Translations under genes and position numbers: made by a program
Notes under the pieces: generated by a model
Database searches by the model: none
What the model was told of the DNA's origin: nothing
Seen by the model: the letters and a program-made list of their open reading frames with translations, nothing else
Assembly: GCA_951813075.1 (NCBI GenBank)
Contig: OX638343.1
Coordinates: forward strand, 372,001-436,000
DNA from: Arenicellales bacterium
GTDB taxonomy: Bacteria; Pseudomonadota; Gammaproteobacteria; Arenicellales; JAJDZL01
Direction: 5' to 3'
DNA: 64,000 bases
Part shown: one piece after another, positions 10,710 to 20,717 of the stretch
How the letters are laid out: each line of letters begins with the position of its first letter
Position numbering within the stretch: position 1 is the first letter of the stretch

Positions 10710-11090
10710 ATGGATAAAGAACTATTCGAAAAAGGGCTGGCAATGCGAAAAGCTACACTCGGCGCTGAATATGTAGAGAAGAATCTGACAGCAGCAGACG
10801 ATTTCAATCGGCCGTTTCAGGAAGCGATGACACAGTGGTGCTGGGGTTTTGGCTGGGGAGACGAAGCGATAGATGCAAAAACCAGATCCATGATGAACCT
10901 TGCGATGATTGGGGCGCTGGGCAAGATGCATGAATGGGAAATACACTGTCGCGGCGCGTTGACCAATGGGGTGACGACAGAACAGATTCGGGCGATCATA
11001 CATGTAGTCGCAATTTATTGCGGAGTTCCCCAAGCCTTGGAGTGCTTTCGGGTGGCACGTGAAGTACTGGAAGAGGCGGGAAGACTATGA
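10710..11090 (+). CDS. Carboxymuconolactone decarboxylase family protein (PcaC-like)
   Basis: The 126-residue helical protein matches the PcaC type of the carboxymuconolactone decarboxylase/AhpD superfamily. It opens with MDKELFEKGLAMRK and carries FGWGDEAIDAKTRSMMNLA followed by a WEIHCRGALTNGVT helix and IIHVVAIYCGVPQALE. In the beta-ketoadipate pathway PcaC turns 4-carboxymuconolactone into the enol-lactone. No other protocatechuate gene is nearby, so the true role may differ. The start is supported by AGGAG eight bases upstream. There is no CxxC pair, so an AhpD-like peroxidase role is unlikely. Confidence 0.85.
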   Translation: MDKELFEKGLAMRKATLGAEYVEKNLTAADDFNRPFQEAMTQWCWGFGWGDEAIDAKTRSMMNLAMIGALGKMHEWEIHCRGALTNGVTTEQIRAIIHVVAIYCGVPQALECFRVAREVLEEAGRL

Positions 11091-11145
11091 CAATTGATTT
11101 GCCATAAATTACCTCAAAACAGAAACTCATCGAATTGTGACGGTG

Positions 11146-11721
11146 TCAATCGGTTTTCTTGAATTTTTTCTTGGTTCTATCGTGATCCCACAGTACGTCA
11201 CCATCGCCGCCTTTCAAGTTGATATAACGAGCGGCGACGAACAGCAAATCCGATAACCGGTTTACGTATTGTCTTGAATATTGGGAGACGTCCTCTTCTT
11301 TAGCAAGCGTTTGCAAACGTCGCTCAACCCGTCTGCAGACGGTTCTTGCGACATGACAGTGTGCCGCCGCTGGGACACCTCCGGGAAGTATGAACTCTTT
11401 AAGTGGTGAGAGTTCACCATTGAATTCATCCAAACAGTCTTCTAGAAATTTAACATTCTCAGCTGTCACTAACGCGTCGAATCCGGGAACTGCAAGTTCT
11501 CCGCCGATATCCAACAAATTATGCTGGACTCTGTTTAAACAACTGCGAATGTTATCAGGTAATTCGTTCGCTAATGTCACACCGATGGAGCTGTTAAGCT
11601 CATCCAGTTGACCGATCGCTTCAATGCGGTTGGAATCTTTTGCGACTCGGCTTCGATCTCCGAGTCCAGTCGATCCATCGTCACCCGTTCTGGTGTAAAT
11701 TTTCGAAAGTCGGTGTCCCAT
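11146..11721 (-). CDS. PduO-type ATP:cob(I)alamin adenosyltransferase
   Basis: The enzyme adds the 5'-deoxyadenosyl group of ATP to cob(I)alamin to make adenosylcobalamin. The N-terminus contains the ATP-binding TRTGDDGSTGLGDR motif near residues 10-23, followed by RIEAIGQLDELNS. The later CHVARTVCRRVERR and RLSDLLFVAAR motifs are typical of PduO and human MMAB. Length, 191 residues, is normal. It is convergent with the PcaC-like gene and stands alone. No cobalamin riboswitch was recognised upstream. Its product could serve adenosylcobalamin enzymes elsewhere; MttB-type systems use a methylcorrinoid instead. Confidence 0.93.
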   Translation of the reverse strand: MGHRLSKIYTRTGDDGSTGLGDRSRVAKDSNRIEAIGQLDELNSSIGVTLANELPDNIRSCLNRVQHNLLDIGGELAVPGFDALVTAENVKFLEDCLDEFNGELSPLKEFILPGGVPAAAHCHVARTVCRRVERRLQTLAKEEDVSQYSRQYVNRLSDLLFVAARYINLKGGDGDVLWDHDRTKKKFKKTD

Positions 11722-11818
11722 AGCTATATTATTGAATTGCAGGAATCGTCAGAATGAAGAGTCAAATTTTACCTCAAACAAGTTTTATTCTATTTAAGAA
11801 TACGGCGTCATCAATCCG

Positions 11819-11903
11819 TAATCATGTCCAAATTGGCAGTCAGTAAAATCAAGCGTGCAGCGGTTCAATATTCGCAACTAACCGTTGGGGGAAAATCCAT
11901 GCC
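11819..11903. repeat. Diverged dispersed repeat, copy C
   Basis: By eye this stretch aligns with 12685-12816 and, less well, with 19205-19320. The shared core reads approximately ATCAAGCnTGnAGCnGTTCA here, followed by CAAC-AACC-GTTG and AATCCATGC. Copies C and A lie in the same orientation on either side of the Uma2 gene. Function is unknown; a decayed insertion-sequence end or other mobile scar is the simplest reading. Confidence 0.45.
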
Positions 11904-12000
11904 AGATAACGCTTGACGGTCGACTTTAAGGAAAATCCACCGCCTCATGCCATGCGGATGAAACAGTTCGAGACTTCAGAATTGTTGCTGATTGTTTGGC

Positions 12001-12654
12001 TCAACTCTGCCCGGGAAGTTCCATTGATGGCTGACCCACTGACTCTGATTCCGGTGCAGATTTATGTAGTATATGTGGTACCCACAAATCACCGAGATCA
12101 AAACTGATCGCGTCAAACGGCGGCAGCGAAACAGATTCGTCGTCGAACAGGGAGTCAATCAATGCCCACTGTTTGTCTCGCAATGCGTATGCTTCCAATG
12201 AACGCGCCTCAGGGTCGACAAGCCACAGATGATTGACACCAGCCCGGGCGTAGATTGCATTCTTACTGCCAAGGTCGAGCTTTCGCGTCGATGGTGAAAG
12301 CACCTCACATACCCAGTCCGGAGCCAACGTAAAGTAAGCTACGTCTGGATATTCAGGCAATCGTTCACGACGCCAACCTGCCCGGTCGGGCACCACGATG
12401 TCATCGCCCAGATGGAGTTCAGGTTCGAATAGAATCCACCAACCGCCAGGTCCGCTGTCACCAAAGTGAAAAGGTGGATTGATACGTCCTCCAAGACCGG
12501 AACTGGCCAAAGCATGGGGTGGTGTCGGTCTCGGGTGCGTATATAACGTGCCGTCGACAACTTCGGCGACCATGTGGGGTGGCGCATCCAGCACATCCTG
12601 ATAGGTCGCGTATGTTGAATTTTTTTCAGTTGCTGTGGCGTCGGGTCTTTTCAT
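12001..12654 (-). CDS. Uma2 family (DUF820) PD-(D/E)XK-fold protein
   Basis: The 217-residue protein belongs to the Uma2/DUF820 group of restriction-endonuclease-fold proteins, whose biological role is poorly known. Visible family features are an N-terminal TYQDVLDAPPHMVAEVVDG segment, the FEPELHLGDDIVVPDRAGWR strand-turn, the ExLSPSTRxxDxxxK motif (VCEVLSPSTRKLDLGSK) and GVNHLWLVDPEARSLEAY. The PD...E.K-like residues needed for the nuclease fold therefore appear intact. The gene stands between two copies of a diverged repeat and next to a broken HerA-like ATPase, which suggests transfer. The C-terminal 20 or so residues are low in conserved features. Confidence 0.85.
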   Translation of the reverse strand: MKRPDATATEKNSTYATYQDVLDAPPHMVAEVVDGTLYTHPRPTPPHALASSGLGGRINPPFHFGDSGPGGWWILFEPELHLGDDIVVPDRAGWRRERLPEYPDVAYFTLAPDWVCEVLSPSTRKLDLGSKNAIYARAGVNHLWLVDPEARSLEAYALRDKQWALIDSLFDDESVSLPPFDAISFDLGDLWVPHILHKSAPESESVGQPSMELPGQS

Positions 12655-12684
12655 CGTATTTTGATTCTTGGCGAGAGTATTGAT

Positions 12685-12816
12685 TTTAGTTCATCGGTGC
12701 TTAGCGAATCAAATTACACCACCTTCAGATCATAGACGACGTCCTGATCGGTATTCAGCAATATCAAGCCTGTAGCAGTTCATAATTGGTAGCAAACCAG
12801 TAGCGAGAATCCCATG
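12685..12816. repeat. Diverged dispersed repeat, copy A
   Basis: This copy overlaps the 3' end of the HerA-like pseudogene and ends just upstream of the Uma2 start. It shares TTTAGT-CAT-GGT-CTT-G-GAATCAAAT and ATTCAGC-AT-TCAAGCCT with copy B at 19205-19320, and the ATCAAGC...GTTCA core with copy C at 11819-11903. In copy B the same sequence directly follows an IS1634-type transposase remnant. Confidence 0.5.
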
Positions 12817-13357
12817 CTCATCGCACATGATCACGATCGGGTGGCGTTTATCTTTCTGGGTCCATAGGCTCGCTGAGAAGATGATCCGTACCGCCAGACT
12901 CACCATCAACGGTAATACGTCCGACGGTACCTCTGAGAAGTCGATGATCTTGATTCCGCCAGAATTATCGTTCTGTGCCGCACGACCAGTTGAGATGACA
13001 TGAACCATGCGCTCAAGCCAATTCATTTCCATGTATTCTGCTGGAGGCTGAAACAAGAATGCTAGGCGACGATCATTTCGTTTGGCCTCCAACCTACCGA
13101 TCAAACGGCTCAATTTACCGTAGCATGGCCCTTGTATTTCACGGTTGCTCGCGCCTGTAATCATCTGCTCGTCAAGATTTTTCAATTCAGTTTATTCGGC
13201 GTAGATGTCGAATTGAACTGGGTAGATTCGCGATTTGATCCAGCAATCGAGCCGTCGTCCAAGATTTTCCAGCCCCGGTGCTACCGACAACAACCGCATG
13301 TCGCTGATACAAATTATTGCCATGAGCTAAGCCACGGCTTGCTTTTCCTGAAGTTCA
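12730..13357 (-). pseudogene. Broken HerA-like (DUF87) ATPase gene
   Basis: Reading the minus strand in three pieces recovers a HerA/DUF87-type ATPase. The first piece contains LYQRHAVVVGSTGAGKSW, whose Walker A GSTGAGKS is encoded at 13285-13262. A frameshift near 13225 leads into FDIYAE, resembling the FDIHGEY motif of HerA proteins, followed by a TAA at 13194-13192. The same frame then runs through RLEAKRNDRRLAFLF and GGIKIIDFSEVP to the Walker B-like IVIMCDE. After that the normal DEAH continuation is lost where repeat copy A begins. Intact HerA-type ATPases translocate DNA, often with NurA-type nucleases or in defence islands. The frameshift, stop and lost C-terminus make this copy non-functional. 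Confidence 0.75.
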
Positions 13358-13939
13358 ACATTCCGGCCGTTGCGGGCTAGTCGCTGACTCTTGTCGGCTT
13401 AGCTGATGCAACCCTGATAAGCCCCATCCCGCAAGTGCAAGTGCAATGCCGGAGTTCACGGCCCGAACAGTGTTCCAGAACTGCCACGGGGCTGAGTAAT
13501 CTTGCCACGCTTCCCTCGCCTGAGCGGTATCCAGCGGCATCCCGACCGAGGCCAGAACCTCGTTCAACGGCACGTTGACGGTTATCGTCGGAACCATGGC
13601 CCCCAGAACGTACAGGAGACCGGCCAGGGTGAAGCAGATTGCAGCCCGCCGCTCCCGAACTCTCAAGGCAGCTAGCGCAGTGAAAATCAACAGGACAGGT
13701 GTACCGAAAAAGGTCGGAGCGAACACCCAATTACGCACACTCGCATTCATGGCCTGCATGGCGGCTACCGCGACCTTGGGGTCCGCCGTGTCCAGCCCCC
13801 ACATGGTCGAGCAAACCCAAGCGAAAAAGAAGCCAAACATGGCGCCGGTAAGGATGAGCGACAGGAGGGCCAGCAGCGTCCCAATGCGAGCAATGTTAAC
13901 CAGATTGTTCTCGTTTGGAGCAAACTCTTTGTCGATCAT
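13355..13939 (-). CDS. DUF1772 / anthrone-oxygenase-like integral membrane protein
   Basis: The 194-residue protein has four predicted membrane segments: about residues 15-42, 70-92, 98-118 and 160-180. This is the pattern of DUF1772 (anthrone oxygenase-like) proteins, with the typical NWVFAPTFFGTP segment after helix 1 and a PLNEVLAS loop after helix 3. Its role in bacteria is not established. The gene is clearly richer in G+C than its surroundings: two hand-counted lines give about 58 and 68 percent against about 40 percent in purL. That suggests recent acquisition. Its TGA stop lies at the edge of the HerA-like pseudogene, in the same reading frame. Confidence 0.75.
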   Translation of the reverse strand: MIDKEFAPNENNLVNIARIGTLLALLSLILTGAMFGFFFAWVCSTMWGLDTADPKVAVAAMQAMNASVRNWVFAPTFFGTPVLLIFTALAALRVRERRAAICFTLAGLLYVLGAMVPTITVNVPLNEVLASVGMPLDTAQAREAWQDYSAPWQFWNTVRAVNSGIALALAGWGLSGLHQLSRQESATSPQRPEC

Positions 13940-14871
13940 TTCGCTTTCGTCGAGATCTCGGTTGTTCAGTTTGCGGGTGATTTAGACTACCAAACCAATC
14001 TGATGCTGGCCAGGCTTACTGCTCTGGAGGATAACAAGGCGATTGACTTGGAGGCGTTTCGATTCGACCAGGCGAAATCGGTGGTAATCGGTGCTATTGT
14101 AGGTGCGGGTGCGAATCTTTCAAATGAACATGTGGGTGATTGTAATGAAATCCGACATTGATCAAGAATATTGTTACTTTCAGGGGCACTACATTCGTCA
14201 GAATCACCCGCAGGAAAATCAGTTCTCCATGAAAACAATAGATTGAAAAATTCAGCGATACACGGATACGTGGTGCATCCAGGCGATATACATCTGCCCC
14301 TCAGCCCCGGTGCTGATGCGCTTCCTTTCGCCGACCTGTAGCGTTATCCTTCTCAATCGGATAGGCACTGAAGATTCAATTACCTGCATATAGAGTGGGT
14401 GTTAATTGACAATACTCAATTTTTCTCCCACCCGTGCCGGATTACCTAGCTAGTGTAATTGATTTTGTACAAATTCCTTAGAGCCGTTTCCTCCTGAAAC
14501 TACATTCAATCTATCGTTTAATTTTCAGACGCCATAATGCAGTCGCATGTTTTGAACAAAACCAATTTTGATTTGATTGTAAAGACACTACTAGACAAAA
14601 CTACACGAAGTTCTTGTCTGTTAACCTAATGGGTAGTATTCAACTCCTCGTTAACCGTCGCTTTTCAAGATTGCAGTTCTTCTGAAGTGCCTATACAGAT
14701 AGGTCTGTCTACCAAAATCACAGCTATCAGACCTGAATTCGTAGTGTCGTCGACCATTTGGAACCAAATATTGCAAATTCATCGCATCCATTGCCTTTTA
14801 GTTGCACGCTACTTTACCCGCAAAAAACTTTCTCTATCATTGGTTCATATTCATCCAATGAGGAGTAAAAA
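13940..14871. other. Gene-poor stretch with one unassigned open frame and a candidate leader hairpin
   Basis: I see no convincing complete gene here. A plus-strand open frame from about 13927 to 14161 reads through NLMLARLTALEDNKAIDLEA and VVIGAIVGAGANLSNE without a clear start. It may be the relic of a coding region, but I do not recognise it. From about 14230 the sequence becomes A+T-rich with scattered stops in all frames. Promoter elements for the DUF2141 operon should lie in the last few hundred bases. Confidence 0.4.
14838..14865 (+). promoter_or_regulatory. Inverted repeat abutting the DUF2141 ribosome-binding site
   Basis: CATTGG (14838-14843) and CCAATG (14855-14860) form a 6-bp inverted repeat with an 11-base spacer, immediately followed by AGGAG (14861-14865) and the ATG at 14872. 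It could fold in the mRNA next to the ribosome-binding site or act as a protein-binding operator. It is short, so chance cannot be excluded. Confidence 0.35.
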
Positions 14872-15303
14872 ATGCGAAAAAACAAATTAATGTTAATCTT
14901 GACTGTTCTATTTTTCACGACATGGGCACCGGCTGGACTAGCTGAATCTCTCACCATCATCATCGAGAACATTGAAGTGGCAGAGGGGAAAATTATGATT
15001 CAAGTTATGTCTGGAGAAGAGGAATTTTTGGGTTCAAACGATCCCATCACGACCGTGTTAATGCGCGCTAGGCCTGAAGAAATGAGATTTTCGACCTCGA
15101 ACCTGCCGACTGGCGAATATGCCATCCGTGTCATGCACGACATCAACGACAACAACGAACTGGATGTCAACTATGTGGGATTGCCAAAGGAACCCTACGC
15201 ATTCTCCAACAATGCATCCGGTAATTTTGGCCCACCCGAATGGGAGGATGTCAAATTTGCTTTACATGGCTCCGTCACACAGAAGATTCAATTAGTTCAT
15301 TGA
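14872..15303 (+). CDS. Secreted DUF2141 domain protein
   Basis: The 143-residue protein begins with a lysine-bearing n-region and a hydrophobic core (LMLILTVLFF) that ends in AGLAES, a good Sec signal peptide cleaved near residue 24. The rest is a small beta-rich DUF2141 domain. It has the family features LTIIIENI, LPTGEYAIRVMHDINDNNEL and GLPKEPYAFSNNA near residues 80-115. The molecular function of DUF2141 is unknown. Such proteins are periplasmic or cell-surface. The stop overlaps the start of the carotenoid-oxygenase gene (TGATG at 15301-15305), and AGGAG precedes its own ATG, so it is the first gene of a four-gene operon. Confidence 0.88.
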   Translation: MRKNKLMLILTVLFFTTWAPAGLAESLTIIIENIEVAEGKIMIQVMSGEEEFLGSNDPITTVLMRARPEEMRFSTSNLPTGEYAIRVMHDINDNNELDVNYVGLPKEPYAFSNNASGNFGPPEWEDVKFALHGSVTQKIQLVH

Positions 15304-16841
15304 TGTTATTTACCATGAACCGTCGCTACTTTCTAAAATTAAGTGCCGCCAGTTTGGGCTCGGGTGCGCTGCAGATGGCAGGTCTTAGCATCGCTCAACA
15401 AGTGAACAGTGCATCCTGGCAAATGAAATTCAAAACAGCACTGAAAGAAAACCCTTGGCTCGCTATTTACCAGACTGCAGCCAATGAAGCATTTGCAAGT
15501 CGTGCTGAAGTCGTCGGACACTGGCCTAAAGAACTAAAAGGAGTTCTATATCGCAATGGTCCAGCTCGACACGAAATCGGAGATTTCCGTTATCACCACT
15601 GGTTTGATGGCGATGGAATGATTCAGGCGTTCGAGATTTCAGCGGATGGCATCACTCACAAAGCTAAGATGATTCGCACCCACAAGTTCAAAAGTGAAAA
15701 GGTTGCTGGTCACGCCCTATATCCAGGTTTTGGAACTCTGCCTCCAGAGCAAATTCCCATCACTGACCCTGACTCAATGAATACCGCAAATATCAGCGTA
15801 CTGCCACATCACAACAAACTGCTGGCACTGTGGGAAGGTGGCTCTCCCTGGGAAATCGATCCCGATACTCTTGAAACCCGTGGCATCCATCATTTTACAG
15901 AACACACTGCTGGTGTTCCTTTCTCAGCGCATCCACGCATAGAACCAGATGGCACGCTGTGGAATTTCGGTTATCTTTCAGGTGCAAGATTGATCGTATT
16001 TTGGCATCTGAACCGTAATGGAAAACTACTTAATATCGGCAAGATCAAATCTGACCCAATTAGTATGCCACATGATTTCGTTGTGACATCAAGGCACATT
16101 ATTCTGATGATTCCACCGCTGAACTTTGAACCCAGTCAGCACTCGTCATTTCTTGATGCGCATCAGTGGCAGCCGGACAAGCCGACGCGCATTCTGGTTG
16201 TAGATAAATACGATTTTTCCAAGTACCGTTGGTTGGAATTACCAAGTCAATGGATCTTTCATTTTGGCAATGGCTGGGAAGATTCTGCGGGTATCATCCG
16301 CTTCGATGGCGCCAGATACATTGACCCGTCAATAATGATCAACACATTTCGCGATGTCATGCGGGGTGTGACTCCGCTGGCCAATTTTAGTCGCCAGCAT
16401 CAGTACCAAATTGATACGAGAAAATGGTCAATTAGCGAGGCGCCGATACTACCGTCAGATATTCTTACCGAGTTTCCGGTGATTGATCCGCGAGTCAGCA
16501 CCCGACGCTACAGCAGACTAATCATGCTTTGCACCAACAAAAACCAACCGGCTCTACATGGTCATCTCAACGGGGTCTGCAGTTTCAATTTGGATTCCGG
16601 TAAACATAATAGCTATTACTATCCAGATACACAGATTCCCGAAGAACACCTGTTCGTAGCAAAACCCGGTAGCAAACCGGAAAGCGGAGGCTGGGTTATC
16701 GGAACATCTCACGATTGGGAAAAGAATAAAACCAACTTGAACGTATTCGATGTTGAGACGATAGATGCAGGTCCAATTGCAATTGCAACGGTACCGTATG
16801 CATTGCCATTTGGCTTACACGGGAAATTTGTAGAGAATTAA
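15303..16841 (+). CDS. Carotenoid oxygenase (RPE65/CCD) family protein with Tat signal
   Basis: Members of this family use a 4-His Fe(II) centre to cleave polyene double bonds in carotenoids, apocarotenoids or lignin stilbenes. The 512-residue protein contains YRHHWFDGDGMIQAF-like text (HHWFDGDGM) near residue 98, HPRIEPDGTLWNFGY, MPHDFVVT, FHFGNGWED and a terminal LHGKFV. These supply the expected conserved His positions. The N-terminus has a twin-arginine motif, NRRYFLKLS, before a hydrophobic stretch, so it is probably exported folded. ATG 15303 overlaps the upstream stop; ATG 15315 is an alternative. The sensor kinase starts four bases after its stop. Periplasmic location is unusual for carotenoid oxygenases. 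Substrate is unknown. Confidence 0.88.
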   Translation: MLFTMNRRYFLKLSAASLGSGALQMAGLSIAQQVNSASWQMKFKTALKENPWLAIYQTAANEAFASRAEVVGHWPKELKGVLYRNGPARHEIGDFRYHHWFDGDGMIQAFEISADGITHKAKMIRTHKFKSEKVAGHALYPGFGTLPPEQIPITDPDSMNTANISVLPHHNKLLALWEGGSPWEIDPDTLETRGIHHFTEHTAGVPFSAHPRIEPDGTLWNFGYLSGARLIVFWHLNRNGKLLNIGKIKSDPISMPHDFVVTSRHIILMIPPLNFEPSQHSSFLDAHQWQPDKPTRILVVDKYDFSKYRWLELPSQWIFHFGNGWEDSAGIIRFDGARYIDPSIMINTFRDVMRGVTPLANFSRQHQYQIDTRKWSISEAPILPSDILTEFPVIDPRVSTRRYSRLIMLCTNKNQPALHGHLNGVCSFNLDSGKHNSYYYPDTQIPEEHLFVAKPGSKPESGGWVIGTSHDWEKNKTNLNVFDVETIDAGPIAIATVPYALPFGLHGKFVEN

Positions 16842-16845
16842 CAGT

Positions 16846-17913
16846 ATGCAAAAATTGCGAAGAAAATTAATTTACCTAGGTTTCACAGGTTTATTTTGTC
16901 TCGCGATCGGACTGCTGCTCTGGTATCTAGGGATTACGGAGTCAGCTTGGATTTCAATACTCATTTCTTTGTGTATCGGTTGGTCAATCAATCTTACCTT
17001 CATTCTGGCCGAGAAATTAATCGCTCAGTATATGCCCGCTTATTTGGTACCCATACCCTTAACCGCGTTTGGATTGACTATCGGACTGTTGATTTCCGGG
17101 AGTATTTTATTCCGTGAGCCACTAAATTTTTTCACCGACAATTATCTAGCGTTAATAATCGGTGTGTTTTTCTCCATTGTCGGCGTGGCAATATTTAGTA
17201 CGCATTACAAATTGCTATCCGCACGGGCAGAACTCGCCAAGGCGGAAGCTCAAAGACAAGCTCAGCAAAAACTACTGCTGGAAACGGAACTAAAACTGCT
17301 ACAAGCACAAATAGAACCTCACTTTCTATTTAATACGCTCTCCAACATTGTCGGACTGATTCGCCAAACTCCAGAAGCAGCGGAACAAAGTCTGCTGAAT
17401 TTAACCACTCTGCTTCGCTATTCACTGCAGAGCACGCGTAAAGCCTTAGTCGCCCTAGAAGAGGAATTGAACTTTGTTCGTGCTTACCTTGATATTCAGT
17501 CCATTCGTATTCCAGAGCGTCTGCAGTATGAATTCCGTCCCTCAGGATTGCTTGAAGGAAATTCAGCGCAAGATTCGATTCGACAATTACAACTACCGCC
17601 GCTCCTGTTGCAGCCGATTGTAGAAAATTCCATAGTTCACGGTATCGAGCCTTCAGAATCCGGAGGACAGGTGGTCATCGAAGTCAGTTTAAGGAATAAT
17701 AAATTGATAATAACCATCACCGATACCGGTGTCAGCATATCCGAACATGCGCCCAGTGCAAAGAACAATGATTTATCCGGGACTGGTCTTGGCAACGTGC
17801 GCCAACGCCTGCACGCCTCATATGGGGATGCCGCAAACATGACGATTTCCGAGAATTCTCCCTGTGGCGTAGTCGTCCAACTGTCAATTCCCGTAAATAA
17901 CGATGAACACTAA
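16846..17913 (+). CDS. LytS/AlgZ-type sensor histidine kinase
   Basis: The 355-residue kinase has four membrane helices in the first 120 residues (about 8-28, 36-58, 68-89, 98-118) with very short loops. A coiled coil follows at about 123-155. Next comes a His_kinase (PF06580) domain whose phosphoacceptor is His159 in EPHFLFN. The C-terminal ATPase half shows LLQPIVENSIVHGIE (N box) and GTGLGNVRQRL (G box). There is no large periplasmic sensor domain, so the signal is likely sensed in or near the membrane. Its stop lies 11 bases inside the response-regulator gene, so the two form a cognate pair. Placement behind the carotenoid-oxygenase gene suggests a linked signal or target. Confidence 0.93.
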   Translation: MQKLRRKLIYLGFTGLFCLAIGLLLWYLGITESAWISILISLCIGWSINLTFILAEKLIAQYMPAYLVPIPLTAFGLTIGLLISGSILFREPLNFFTDNYLALIIGVFFSIVGVAIFSTHYKLLSARAELAKAEAQRQAQQKLLLETELKLLQAQIEPHFLFNTLSNIVGLIRQTPEAAEQSLLNLTTLLRYSLQSTRKALVALEEELNFVRAYLDIQSIRIPERLQYEFRPSGLLEGNSAQDSIRQLQLPPLLLQPIVENSIVHGIEPSESGGQVVIEVSLRNNKLIITITDTGVSISEHAPSAKNNDLSGTGLGNVRQRLHASYGDAANMTISENSPCGVVVQLSIPVNNDEH

Positions 17914-18643
17914 CGCAATTATTGTTGACGACGAGCCCAAACTTGTTGATTATCTTGATGGTAAACTCGCCAAACTATGGCCGGAGTTAACTATTGCAGG
18001 CATCGCTCATAACGGTCAAAACGCCATTGACCTAGCGAACGAAGTACAACCCGACATCGCCTTTCTGGATATTCAAATGCCGAATATGAGTGGACTTCAA
18101 GTGGCTGAAGCATTACCGGCAAAAACGAAAGTCGTGTTCATTACCGCCTACGATGAATTCGCGGTGGACGCCTTCCAACGCGCTGCCGTTGACTATCTGT
18201 TAAAGCCGGTTAGCGATATCCGACTCAGGCAAACCATCGTTCGTCTAAAGGAACGAAGTGATCAGAACCGCGAAGAACTAGTCAAGCTATTACGTAGTAT
18301 CAGCGAAGAGAAACATAGCTATTTGCAGTGGATTCGAGCGGGCTTTGGTGACACAATCGAACTCATTTCGGTGCAGGACATCATTTACTGTAAAGCAGAG
18401 CACAAGTACACCAGCATCATTACACGACACCGGAAGTTCGTCATCAGGCGCAGCATCAAGGACCTAGAACAACAACTGGATCCGAACCGGTTTTGGAGGA
18501 TACATCGCGGATTGATTGTTCGGATTGATCAAATTCAAAAAGCACAGCGAGACCTGCGCGGGCGCTACACCATTACACTTCGAGATTGTCCTGACATTTT
18601 GCGTAGCAGTCGGAACTATGGAACACTGTTCAAGATGATGTGA
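17903..18643 (+). CDS. LytTR-family response regulator
   Basis: The 246-residue regulator has an N-terminal receiver domain with acidic residues D9-D10, phosphoacceptor Asp56 (AFLDIQMP) and the conserved LLKPV lysine near residue 105. A C-terminal LytTR DNA-binding domain follows at about 140-240, with ISVQDIIYCKAEHKYTSI and FWRIHRGLIVRIDQI, both typical. LytTR proteins bind pairs of imperfect direct repeats upstream of target promoters. The gene overlaps the kinase by 11 bases. Its targets are not evident; autoregulation of the DUF2141 operon is plausible. Just downstream begins a transposase relic. Confidence 0.94.
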   Translation: MNTNAIIVDDEPKLVDYLDGKLAKLWPELTIAGIAHNGQNAIDLANEVQPDIAFLDIQMPNMSGLQVAEALPAKTKVVFITAYDEFAVDAFQRAAVDYLLKPVSDIRLRQTIVRLKERSDQNREELVKLLRSISEEKHSYLQWIRAGFGDTIELISVQDIIYCKAEHKYTSIITRHRKFVIRRSIKDLEQQLDPNRFWRIHRGLIVRIDQIQKAQRDLRGRYTITLRDCPDILRSSRNYGTLFKMM

Positions 18644-18691
18644 CCATTCAGTAGGTCAGAATTATCTATTCCAATATCTGCCATCGAGGTG

Positions 18692-19179
18692 AGGTGGAAG
18701 TTCAATGAACGCCGGGCGTATCGCGATGCCACCGCTGGAATGTATCTGCTTCGAACCTCGTTTTGCCAGTAGGATGAGGTGCGCATCACCCGGCTGTACT
18801 GGACCTTGAGTGATGTCGAGGCGACATTTCGCACCCTGAATCGGAACTAGGTCTGCGGCCGGTCTATCATCGGACACTGCGTCGCATTAGGGTGTATCTT
18901 TTCATTTCGGTACTCGCCTACCAGGCGGTACACTACCTGCGCCTGATGATGCACTCAAATGGCGAGCGACACAACTGTCAGACAATCCACCGACGGTTGG
19001 CGAACATCAATCGCATCACCACGGAACTGACCGATGCCGACGGTGACCGCATACAGATACGTCAGAATACACCCCCCGATTCGCAGCAGCGAAATCTGTT
19101 GTCTACGATGGGAGTGACGTTGCAGATCGACCAGCAGATCGGTCGCTGGTCAGATGGAGTGGAAGTCACAAAATCTTGA
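18692..19179 (+). pseudogene. IS1634-family transposase remnant (C-terminal part)
   Basis: Three readable pieces reproduce the C-terminal half of an IS1634-type (IS4 superfamily) DDE transposase. Frame one gives AGMYLLRTSFCQ, a TAG at 18770-18772 where the family usually has Trp, then LYWTLSDVEATFRTL. A frameshift near 18838 leads to SELGLRPVYHRTLRRIRVYL, then LFISVLAYQAVHYLR and the usual C-terminal tail to the TGA at 19179. The N-terminal half and one end of the element are missing. The element is dead and sits directly behind the LytTR operon. Confidence 0.8.
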
Positions 19180-19204
19180 CCCGTAGCAATTGTAATGGTC
19201 GGAA

Positions 19205-19320
19205 TTTAGTCCATTGGTACTTGGTGAATCAAATCTCCGTCAAATCATACCCTGCATCCTAATCGACATTCAGCGATTTCAAGCCTATGCACCCAGTAAT
19301 TTGTGAGCAATGCTTCCATC
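19205..19320. repeat. Diverged dispersed repeat, copy B
   Basis: This stretch starts 26 bases after the IS1634-type remnant and aligns by eye with copy A at 12685-12816 over its whole length, with small gaps. Because it follows the transposase, the repeat family may be the right-hand end region of that element, with copies A and C as scars of relatives. No clear terminal inverted repeat was identified. Confidence 0.45.
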
Positions 19321-19841
19321 CGGGTTGGGTGTTTACGTTGTTCTCACCTCACATCACCAATATCCGTACTAAGGCTACTGTCAGTTTCAAGTGTCTGCCT
19401 GGATAAGACTTTCAGAGCATCAGTTCTTTGATATAGGTCTTGATCCCATTTGTTTCTCTTATGTAGTTGATGTAATTTATTATCTAGATTATTCGTAATC
19501 TTAATTTAGTGGGCTTGGGAATTATTTTCGAATCAAGCTGTATTGACAACAATCCCTGCCTATTCCATAATTTCATTCTTAACAACTGCGCGTTACTGGA
19601 CGACGTGTAAATCTCAAAATTCTTACCCGAATTCGCTTTAATCCTGCTTGAACGACACATCAGGTAAGAAATAATATGTCCGGAGTCACATTGAGCAGTT
19701 AGTTCTTTTGTTGGGATGGAGTCAGTGCATCCAATTATGATCAATAATGCATTGCTGACCAGGCATCATGAACTAATATAGCGCAGTAAGAATTCGATTC
19801 AATCGATCAGACTGAATTCAGATTAGTTGGAGACCGAACAA
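19321..19841. other. A+T-rich intergenic region before dapA
   Basis: About 520 bases without a supportable gene. The open frames here are short, rich in rare residues and lack ribosome-binding sites. The last 60 bases hold the dapA ribosome-binding site (GGAG at 19829-19832) and presumably its promoter. Confidence 0.5.
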
Positions 19842-20717
19842 ATGATTACAGGTAGTATTTGCGCGATCGTCACACCCATGCACGAAGATGGCTCTGTGGA
19901 TTTGGATTCGCTATCCAAACTGATTGAACATCACATCGAATCTGGTACCGACGGAATCGTTTCCGTTGGCACCACAGGTGAATCAGCCACTCTGACTCAT
20001 GAAGAGCATCAACTCGTATTCGAAAAAACGATCGATTGTGTTGCGAGCCGAATTCCGGTCATCGCGGGTACAGGGTCGAACAGCACAGCTGAAGCACTGG
20101 AGCTAACCACTGCAGCGAAAGAACTTGGAGCCGACGCTTGTTTGCTCGTTGTTCCGTATTACAACAAACCAACCCAGGAAGGGATGTACCAACATTTCAA
20201 ATTGATTGCAGAATCCGTTGACATCCCACAAATTCTCTACAACGTACCTGGCCGAACGGTAGCAGACCTTCACAATAGCACAGTTGTCCGCCTCAGCCAC
20301 ATCGACAATATTGTCGGTATCAAGGATGCCACGGCAGATATTGAGCGTGGCATCAGATTGATGGAAGATTCCGCTGATGGATTTGTTTCATTTTCCGGGC
20401 AGGATACCGATGCTATGGGACTTATGCTGGCAGGAGGGAAGGGTACAATTTCTGTCACTGCGAACGTTGCACCAAAACTGATGCATGAAATGTGTACCGC
20501 TGCTGTTGCCGGAAATGAATCTCTTGCAAATGAACTAAATGACAAGCTGATGCCGGTGCACGAAGCGATGTTTGTCGAATCAAATCCGATACCAGCCAAA
20601 TGGGGGGTATCACAACAGGGTTTCATTGAAAACGGAATCAGGTTACCTTTGGTTCCCTTGTCAGACGATGCCCAACCTAGAGTGCGGGCGGCTATGGTTA
20701 GTGCCGGGGTGCTTTAA
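19842..20717 (+). CDS. dapA: 4-hydroxy-tetrahydrodipicolinate synthase
   Basis: DapA condenses pyruvate with aspartate semialdehyde, the first committed step to lysine and meso-diaminopimelate for peptidoglycan. From ATG 19842 the protein has 291 residues. Its catalytic Lys falls at position 161 (VGIKDATAD) and its Tyr at 133 (LYNVPGR), exactly the E. coli numbering, which supports this start over the in-frame TTG at 19827. GTTGESATL near residue 43 is the pyruvate-binding TT motif. The GGAG ribosome-binding site overlaps the rejected TTG. purC follows 41 bases after the stop; in many gammaproteobacteria bamC lies between these two genes, but not here. Confidence 0.97.
   Translation: MITGSICAIVTPMHEDGSVDLDSLSKLIEHHIESGTDGIVSVGTTGESATLTHEEHQLVFEKTIDCVASRIPVIAGTGSNSTAEALELTTAAKELGADACLLVVPYYNKPTQEGMYQHFKLIAESVDIPQILYNVPGRTVADLHNSTVVRLSHIDNIVGIKDATADIERGIRLMEDSADGFVSFSGQDTDAMGLMLAGGKGTISVTANVAPKLMHEMCTAAVAGNESLANELNDKLMPVHEAMFVESNPIPAKWGVSQQGFIENGIRLPLVPLSDDAQPRVRAAMVSAGVL

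Follow-up and report, generated by a model that had tools for sequence, protein, structure and literature searches.

The Uma2 gene that lies between direct repeats in the window (the whole 64,000-nt stretch of DNA analysed) is likely to be the residue of a small head-to-tail array of such genes, with the repeats being the flanks left over from lost duplicates, as judged from sequence. Three parts of this reading were observed directly: the homology of the repeats, designated A, C, and D, to Uma2 5' flanks, an in-register coding vestige at a second locus at 182 kb in the same genome, and a live array in the same genus. From them we infer that a gene once stood at both C and D, and in what order the events took place. 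When direct repeats lie on either side of a gene, that gene can be all that survives of a tandem array, its lost neighbours having left orphan upstream regions as scars; this corrects the mobile-element call that such a layout is likely to receive. The genus also lets Uma2 be followed from a live array (genome G003) to decayed ones (G000, the genome of the window) and to a genome with no detected copy (G001), which is useful for learning how the family multiplies.

Results

The Uma2 (COG4636/DUF820) gene occupies 12001..12654 on the minus strand as an open frame of 217 aa. Its product matched PF05685 with E 2.3e-23 (83 bits against a cut-off of 27, profile positions 11-166 of 172), above the cut-off and over most of the domain, which confirmed the Uma2-type gene named in the initial annotation. 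P89, D90, E117, and K131 were invariant in 12/12 aligned proteins, giving the conserved PD, E, and displaced K. By analogy with the excerpts of Feder and Bujnicki 2005 (PMC551604), these would be the catalytic residues of a PD-EXX-K site, with K131 as the displaced lysine, and the window protein is probably a PD-(D/E)XK nuclease, as predicted from its family membership. The dN/dS was 0.27 between the window gene and its sister copy at 182 kb and 0.12-0.27 across 10 Uma2 pairs, values that are rough because dS was >1 in 7/10 pairs. The Uma2 coding sequences appear to be under constraint. In a tree of 25 genes, the window and 182-kb genes were sisters with support of 1.0 (codon) and 0.998 (protein). 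No partner gene for Uma2 was seen at the window locus.

Repeat A (12655..12816, minus strand) comprises the 5' leader, a promoter-like site, and the upstream flank of the intact Uma2 gene; it could be aligned to the sequence upstream of Uma2 at 6 other loci of the genome and has a DNA match at 182 kb. Two profiles of Uma2 upstream regions and first codons were built, a narrow one from the window and 182-kb genes and a broad one from 19 genes of G000 and G003. Both found C, D, and the left repeat of the 182-kb locus, none of which was in either profile. Repeat C (11808..11890, minus strand), which we read as the decayed 5' flank of an adjacent, presumably lost Uma2 copy, gave E 3.5e-8 with the narrow profile and was borderline with the broad one (E 0.011 in the profile search, E 0.082 in the control of 28 open reading frames (ORFs) below). 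Repeat D (19173..19285, minus strand), the 5' flank and leader of another presumed lost copy, gave E 3.5e-18 and 5.3e-11, and the 182-kb left repeat gave E 9.7e-22 (2 flanks) and 4.4e-7 (19 flanks); the best of 200 shuffles reached E 4.9. The limits of C and D were taken from these matches, A continues into the Uma2 leader, and the repeats are about 80-160 nt long. As the initial annotation had stated, the repeats flank the Uma2 gene in direct orientation, A, C, and D all being on the same strand.

Pairwise alignment scores were compared with those of 1000 dinucleotide shuffles under three scoring schemes. The A-D and A-C scores were higher than all 1000 shuffles in each scheme. However, the direct C-D comparison stayed at the shuffle level, as 349, 82, and 120 shuffles reached its score. 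The initial annotation therefore held for the Uma2 gene and for the similarity of A to C and D, but not for that of C to D. In these comparisons, C is the weakest member and belongs to the set only through A and through the profiles. It was identical to A at 52/81 sites and to the 182-kb left repeat at 41/79. This greater likeness of C to A does not favour a common origin of the two brackets in a single ancestral pair. The at most 81 comparable sites gave no resolution of sister relations among the repeats.

By sequence, the repeat is the Uma2 gene's own 5' flank: A is owned by the intact gene, and C and D are flanks without a gene. This conclusion was drawn because a profile scan, upstream matches, and a 7-locus alignment all place the repeat before Uma2 starts. 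A genome search with the DNA around D returned two further copies, both at 182 kb. A five-copy repeat profile run against the whole genome (150/349 first-look candidates scored) returned the five training copies, two weak matches upstream of Uma2 genes at 1848 kb (E 0.0026) and 2952 kb (E 0.075), and one match at E 0.57. Since the scan gave only Uma2 flanks and the E 0.57 match besides the training copies, an independent repeat family was rejected; no further free-standing family, such as the initial annotation had envisaged, appeared among the candidates scored. The DNA profile of the repeat also matched 27-36 bp upstream of the start at 5/5 other Uma2 loci that keep a start codon, each match being weak (E 0.0025 to 0.31). 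When the upstream regions of the 7 Uma2 loci of the genome were aligned before their start codons, they shared a core, which was not seen by eye outside the genus in the 95 nt upstream of the listed related Uma2 genes.

A sigma-70-like site in A (TTGATT, 18 nt, TAAAAT; 12683..12712, minus strand) matches the consensus and falls within this shared core, and the same site is present in the 182-kb unit. A consensus scan, which by itself gives no evidence of function, found 4 sites against 1.5 expected and, at 182 kb, 2 against 2.1 expected, which is chance level. The argument for the site is therefore its shared position and not the count. The scan also marked a site with a 16-nt spacer at the left edge of C. 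The Uma2 5' flank may hold the promoter. Folding of the repeat as single-stranded DNA gave no signal in the 5 copies (z-scores 0.42, -0.56, 0.79, 0.14, and -0.19), and no Rfam match was obtained in window positions 11000-20000. An RNA element was rejected on these two results, and an integron-type gene cassette (attC) was rejected because the 5 copies gave no folding signal for a stable hairpin.

The 182-kb locus has a second Uma2 gene (216 aa) with one repeat on each side, arranged as in the window. The unit lies between what we take, from sequence, to be a TRAP-type transporter gene and ribBA. An 857-bp DNA match at 77% between the two units spans the gene and most of A, and the two loci also resemble each other in the spacer from stop codon to left repeat. 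At 182 kb, this left repeat reads on in register through the leader, the start codon (now not ATG), and ~14-16 codons of decayed Uma2. The score of this coding extension against the window gene was reached by 0/2000 mononucleotide shuffles in both schemes; the match to the gene of its own locus was weaker (297 and 22 of 2000). A vestige of a lost gene beside an orphan flank was detected at the 182-kb locus and not next to C or D. For the DNA left of C, 1034 to 1956 of 2000 shuffles reached the score, and for that left of D, where no clear vestige was seen, 71 to 407 did. A gap-tolerant shuffle test for gene vestiges over whole intergenic stretches was negative (the lowest of 12 comparisons being 38/500, beside D). 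A test with stricter gaps, like the profiles, detected a vestige nowhere but at 182 kb. The 182-kb unit (L022:9745-11295) is at a joint whose two sides lie on separate contigs in G001, where the genes left of the unit adjoin a purL-like gene. A further Uma2 remnant of 159 bp at G000:C1:2795745-2795903 matched the 3' end of the 182-kb unit at 74%.

Repeat D ends at 19173, about 4 bases short of where its start codon would be, and there abuts the 3' remnant of an IS1634-family transposase gene (18892..19173, plus strand; NF033559 E 7.8e-6, 25 bits against a cut-off of 100). The remnant has 82-93% DNA matches to three other loci. The IS copies at these loci (the longest with 90% over 493 nt) stop matching at 19172-19173, and different DNA follows that point in the two copies reading in the same direction. 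Because the matches to the IS copies all stop at 19172-19173, the window junction joins a fragment of the IS to a Uma2 leader. Next to A is a remnant of a HerA-type helicase gene (12817..13185, minus strand; NF042944 E 5.8e-13, 48 bits against a cut-off of 850, profile positions 319-414 of 576). The initial annotation had placed A at the point where the HerA-like gene breaks off, which is approximately right, as the profile match is lost at about 12847, some 30 bases from the end of A. The remnant resembles helicases of anti-phage systems (NF042944, far under the cut-off), and no HerA relatives were detected in G001-G005 (0/5 at E 1e-5).

G001 is the nearest of five same-genus relatives by two proteins (88 and 89% identity, against 63-74% for the others). 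Comparison by blastn with the equivalent G001 region (L104), where the neighbours are genes that we take to be pduO (identified by PF01923) and dapA, showed that window positions 11752..19536 are absent from G001: 7.8 kb in the window corresponds to 159 nt between matching blocks. The edges of this segment, which are not base-exact because the intergenic DNA is too diverged from G001, do not coincide with the repeats, and the segment extends 6.7 kb beyond A. The Uma2 genes at 2174 kb (1984 vs 656 bp) and 2952 kb (5098 vs 212 bp) are also in stretches missing from G001. All four G000 loci compared with G001 are therefore plastic, three in G001-absent stretches and the 182-kb locus at a rearrangement joint. 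At three loci, the variable stretches have edges other than those of the units. The similarity between Uma2 copies at separate sites continues outside the gene; its limits are often near -250 and +210 to +245 but were ragged by eye in many pairs. A precise mobile unit was rejected on these two grounds. In G001 (a draft, 97% complete), Uma2 had no match at E 0.01 and the repeat had no match among 32/238 candidates scored under stricter filters.

The Uma2 family matches total 30, with 8 in G000 and 22 in other genomes. We examined 28 ATG-started ORFs of at least 100 aa (7 in G000, 14 in G003, 4 in G004, and 3 in G005) for a second flank; three fragments (1843 kb in G000; 2731 kb and 2938.2 kb in G003) were left out, and one truncated ORF not listed separately among the family matches was included. 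A second flank occurred within 450 bp after the stop in 6/28 ORFs and in none of the other 22. Four of the six were G003 ORFs with a further Uma2 ORF behind them, truncated in two cases, and the other two were the window and 182-kb loci. Part of the G003 matches was expected, since those flanks were included in the 19-gene profile. The second flank in the window gave E 0.082 with the broad profile and 2.7e-7 with the narrow one, and narrow-profile scores were 27.7 bits in the window and 72.2 bits at 182 kb, against 6.1 bits for the best of 560 shuffled regions. The broad profile had no match in the 560 shuffled regions.

The live array in G003 has three Uma2 genes head to tail with a period of 1122-1123 bp, and G003:C1:3600000-3636000 (L083, L084) holds nine same-strand Uma2 genes in about 36 kb, these three included. 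In this variable island, the Uma2 copies could be used as homology for exchange. The G003 genes are interleaved with AbiEi/AbiEii (AbiE-type toxin-antitoxin; AbiEi twice), TIR-domain, PIN, and transposase genes. At the array joints, a short direct repeat seemed, by eye, to be shared by both ends of tandem units. Two Uma2 loci are common to G004 and G005, with surroundings or flank, and some copies look stably inherited, as ordinary genes. Over 100 genomes, the repeat profile had matches in 2, G000 and G003.

Discussion

In a relic of tandem duplication, the repeat is the duplicated gene's own flank and lies on the same strand, and this was found here. The duplicated unit would have been a Uma2 gene with its upstream flank, each neighbour contributing one flank on the same strand. 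Gene loss would then have left the intact gene with A and, from the left and right neighbours, only their flanks, C and D respectively. D is now 6.4 kb away and apparently cut just before its start codon by the IS remnant. Unequal homologous exchange may have been the mechanism of duplication. Losing neighbouring duplicates in this way is an ordinary outcome for a duplicating gene family.

Uma2 nucleases may also, on the hypothesis of Feder and Bujnicki 2005, drive their own spread, with DNA breaks provoking recombination that copies genes and flanks to new places and into tandem arrays. This would be a cause behind the array and not an alternative to it, and we regard it as unlikely. It would fit the finding that three of the four compared G000 loci (those of the window, 2174 kb, and 2952 kb) are in G001-absent stretches and the fourth (182 kb) is at a rearrangement joint, the lack of a detected Uma2 in G001, the DNA that copies at different sites share outside the gene, and the dN/dS of 0.12-0.27 in 10 pairs (rough, with dS >1 in 7). 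However, the cleavage activity and its target are putative, the edges of the variable stretches do not fit unit edges, and the two loci common to G004 and G005 behave like ordinary inherited genes. A stronger form, which we think rather improbable, is that Uma2 and its upstream flank form a minimal self-spreading unit of about 1.1 kb, which the repair of nuclease-provoked breaks copies to adjacent or other places and whose flank homology expands, collapses, and rearranges variable islands. If true, such a unit would be a transposase-free route of gene proliferation.

It is very unlikely that Uma2 is the passenger of a mobile unit ending in direct repeats (LTR-like, or a cassette bounded by recombination sites), with D as a solo scar after excision. 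The repeat-Uma2-repeat layout occurs at two loci with different neighbours, similarity ends near the outer repeats, D is a lone copy, and the window locus is inside a segment absent from G001. These observations are set against the identity of the repeat as Uma2's own 5' flank, the 22/28 ORFs without a downstream copy within 450 bp, the continuation of the 182-kb left repeat into Uma2 codons, the reach of the window segment 6.7 kb past A, and the absent folding signal. The initial annotation had read the locus as a cargo gene in a scarred mobile or recombination site. Its repeats and bracketing stand, and the locus is part of the G001-absent segment, but the cargo gene between element ends is not supported, given the origin of the repeat in the gene's own flank, the lack of an independent family among the candidates scored, and those 22 ORFs. 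A composite transposon or IS-bounded cassette is not supported either, as the repeats match Uma2 5' flanks and are not IS copies, and the transposase remnant abuts D only. Chance similarity of intergenic DNA is almost certainly wrong, being refuted for A, D, and the 182-kb copies and leaving C alone as the weakest case: the C-D comparison is no better than shuffles, but A-C and A-D exceed all 1000, and profiles excluding C, D, and the 182-kb left repeat found all three.

The array relic can be compared with published cases. In the excerpts of PMC551604, Uma2/COG4636/DUF820 proteins are predicted PD-(D/E)XK nucleases whose proliferating genes show erratic positions, occasional tandem duplications, and horizontal transfer, and nicks or breaks are hypothesized to stimulate recombination. 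Our genes are alike in protein family and in these features, including proliferation within a genome. However, the family in those excerpts is mainly from Cyanobacteria, whereas ours belongs to an uncultured gammaproteobacterial genus, in which the flanks are conserved from copy to copy and some flanks are left over with no gene. Uma2 proliferation and tandem duplication are already published (PMC551604), and what we describe is a known pattern in a decayed state. The excerpted text of Makarova et al. 2009 (PMC2701414) lists Uma2 as a 'likely solo toxin' forming 'cassettes of paralogous genes'. The likeness to these cassettes is in neighbouring paralogues and the absence of a partner gene; the difference is that the window has one survivor with flank remnants, and the toxin role is putative. 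Uma2 expansions in Thermus (PMC1274311) and Thermosynechococcus (PMC9403480), as far as the available passages of these papers go, are alike in having many paralogues per lineage, but they concern other phyla and flanking repeats were not seen in those passages. Orphan Uma2 upstream regions were not described in the literature searched, of which the sources gave partial coverage. Related Uma2 proteins (L111-L190) with 60-72% identity, among the matches listed (80 of 258), came from MAGs titled alpha- and gammaproteobacteria, acidobacteria, gemmatimonadetes, Binatota, and others, often with several loci per assembly. This spread across several phyla suggests wide transfer or strong conservation of Uma2.
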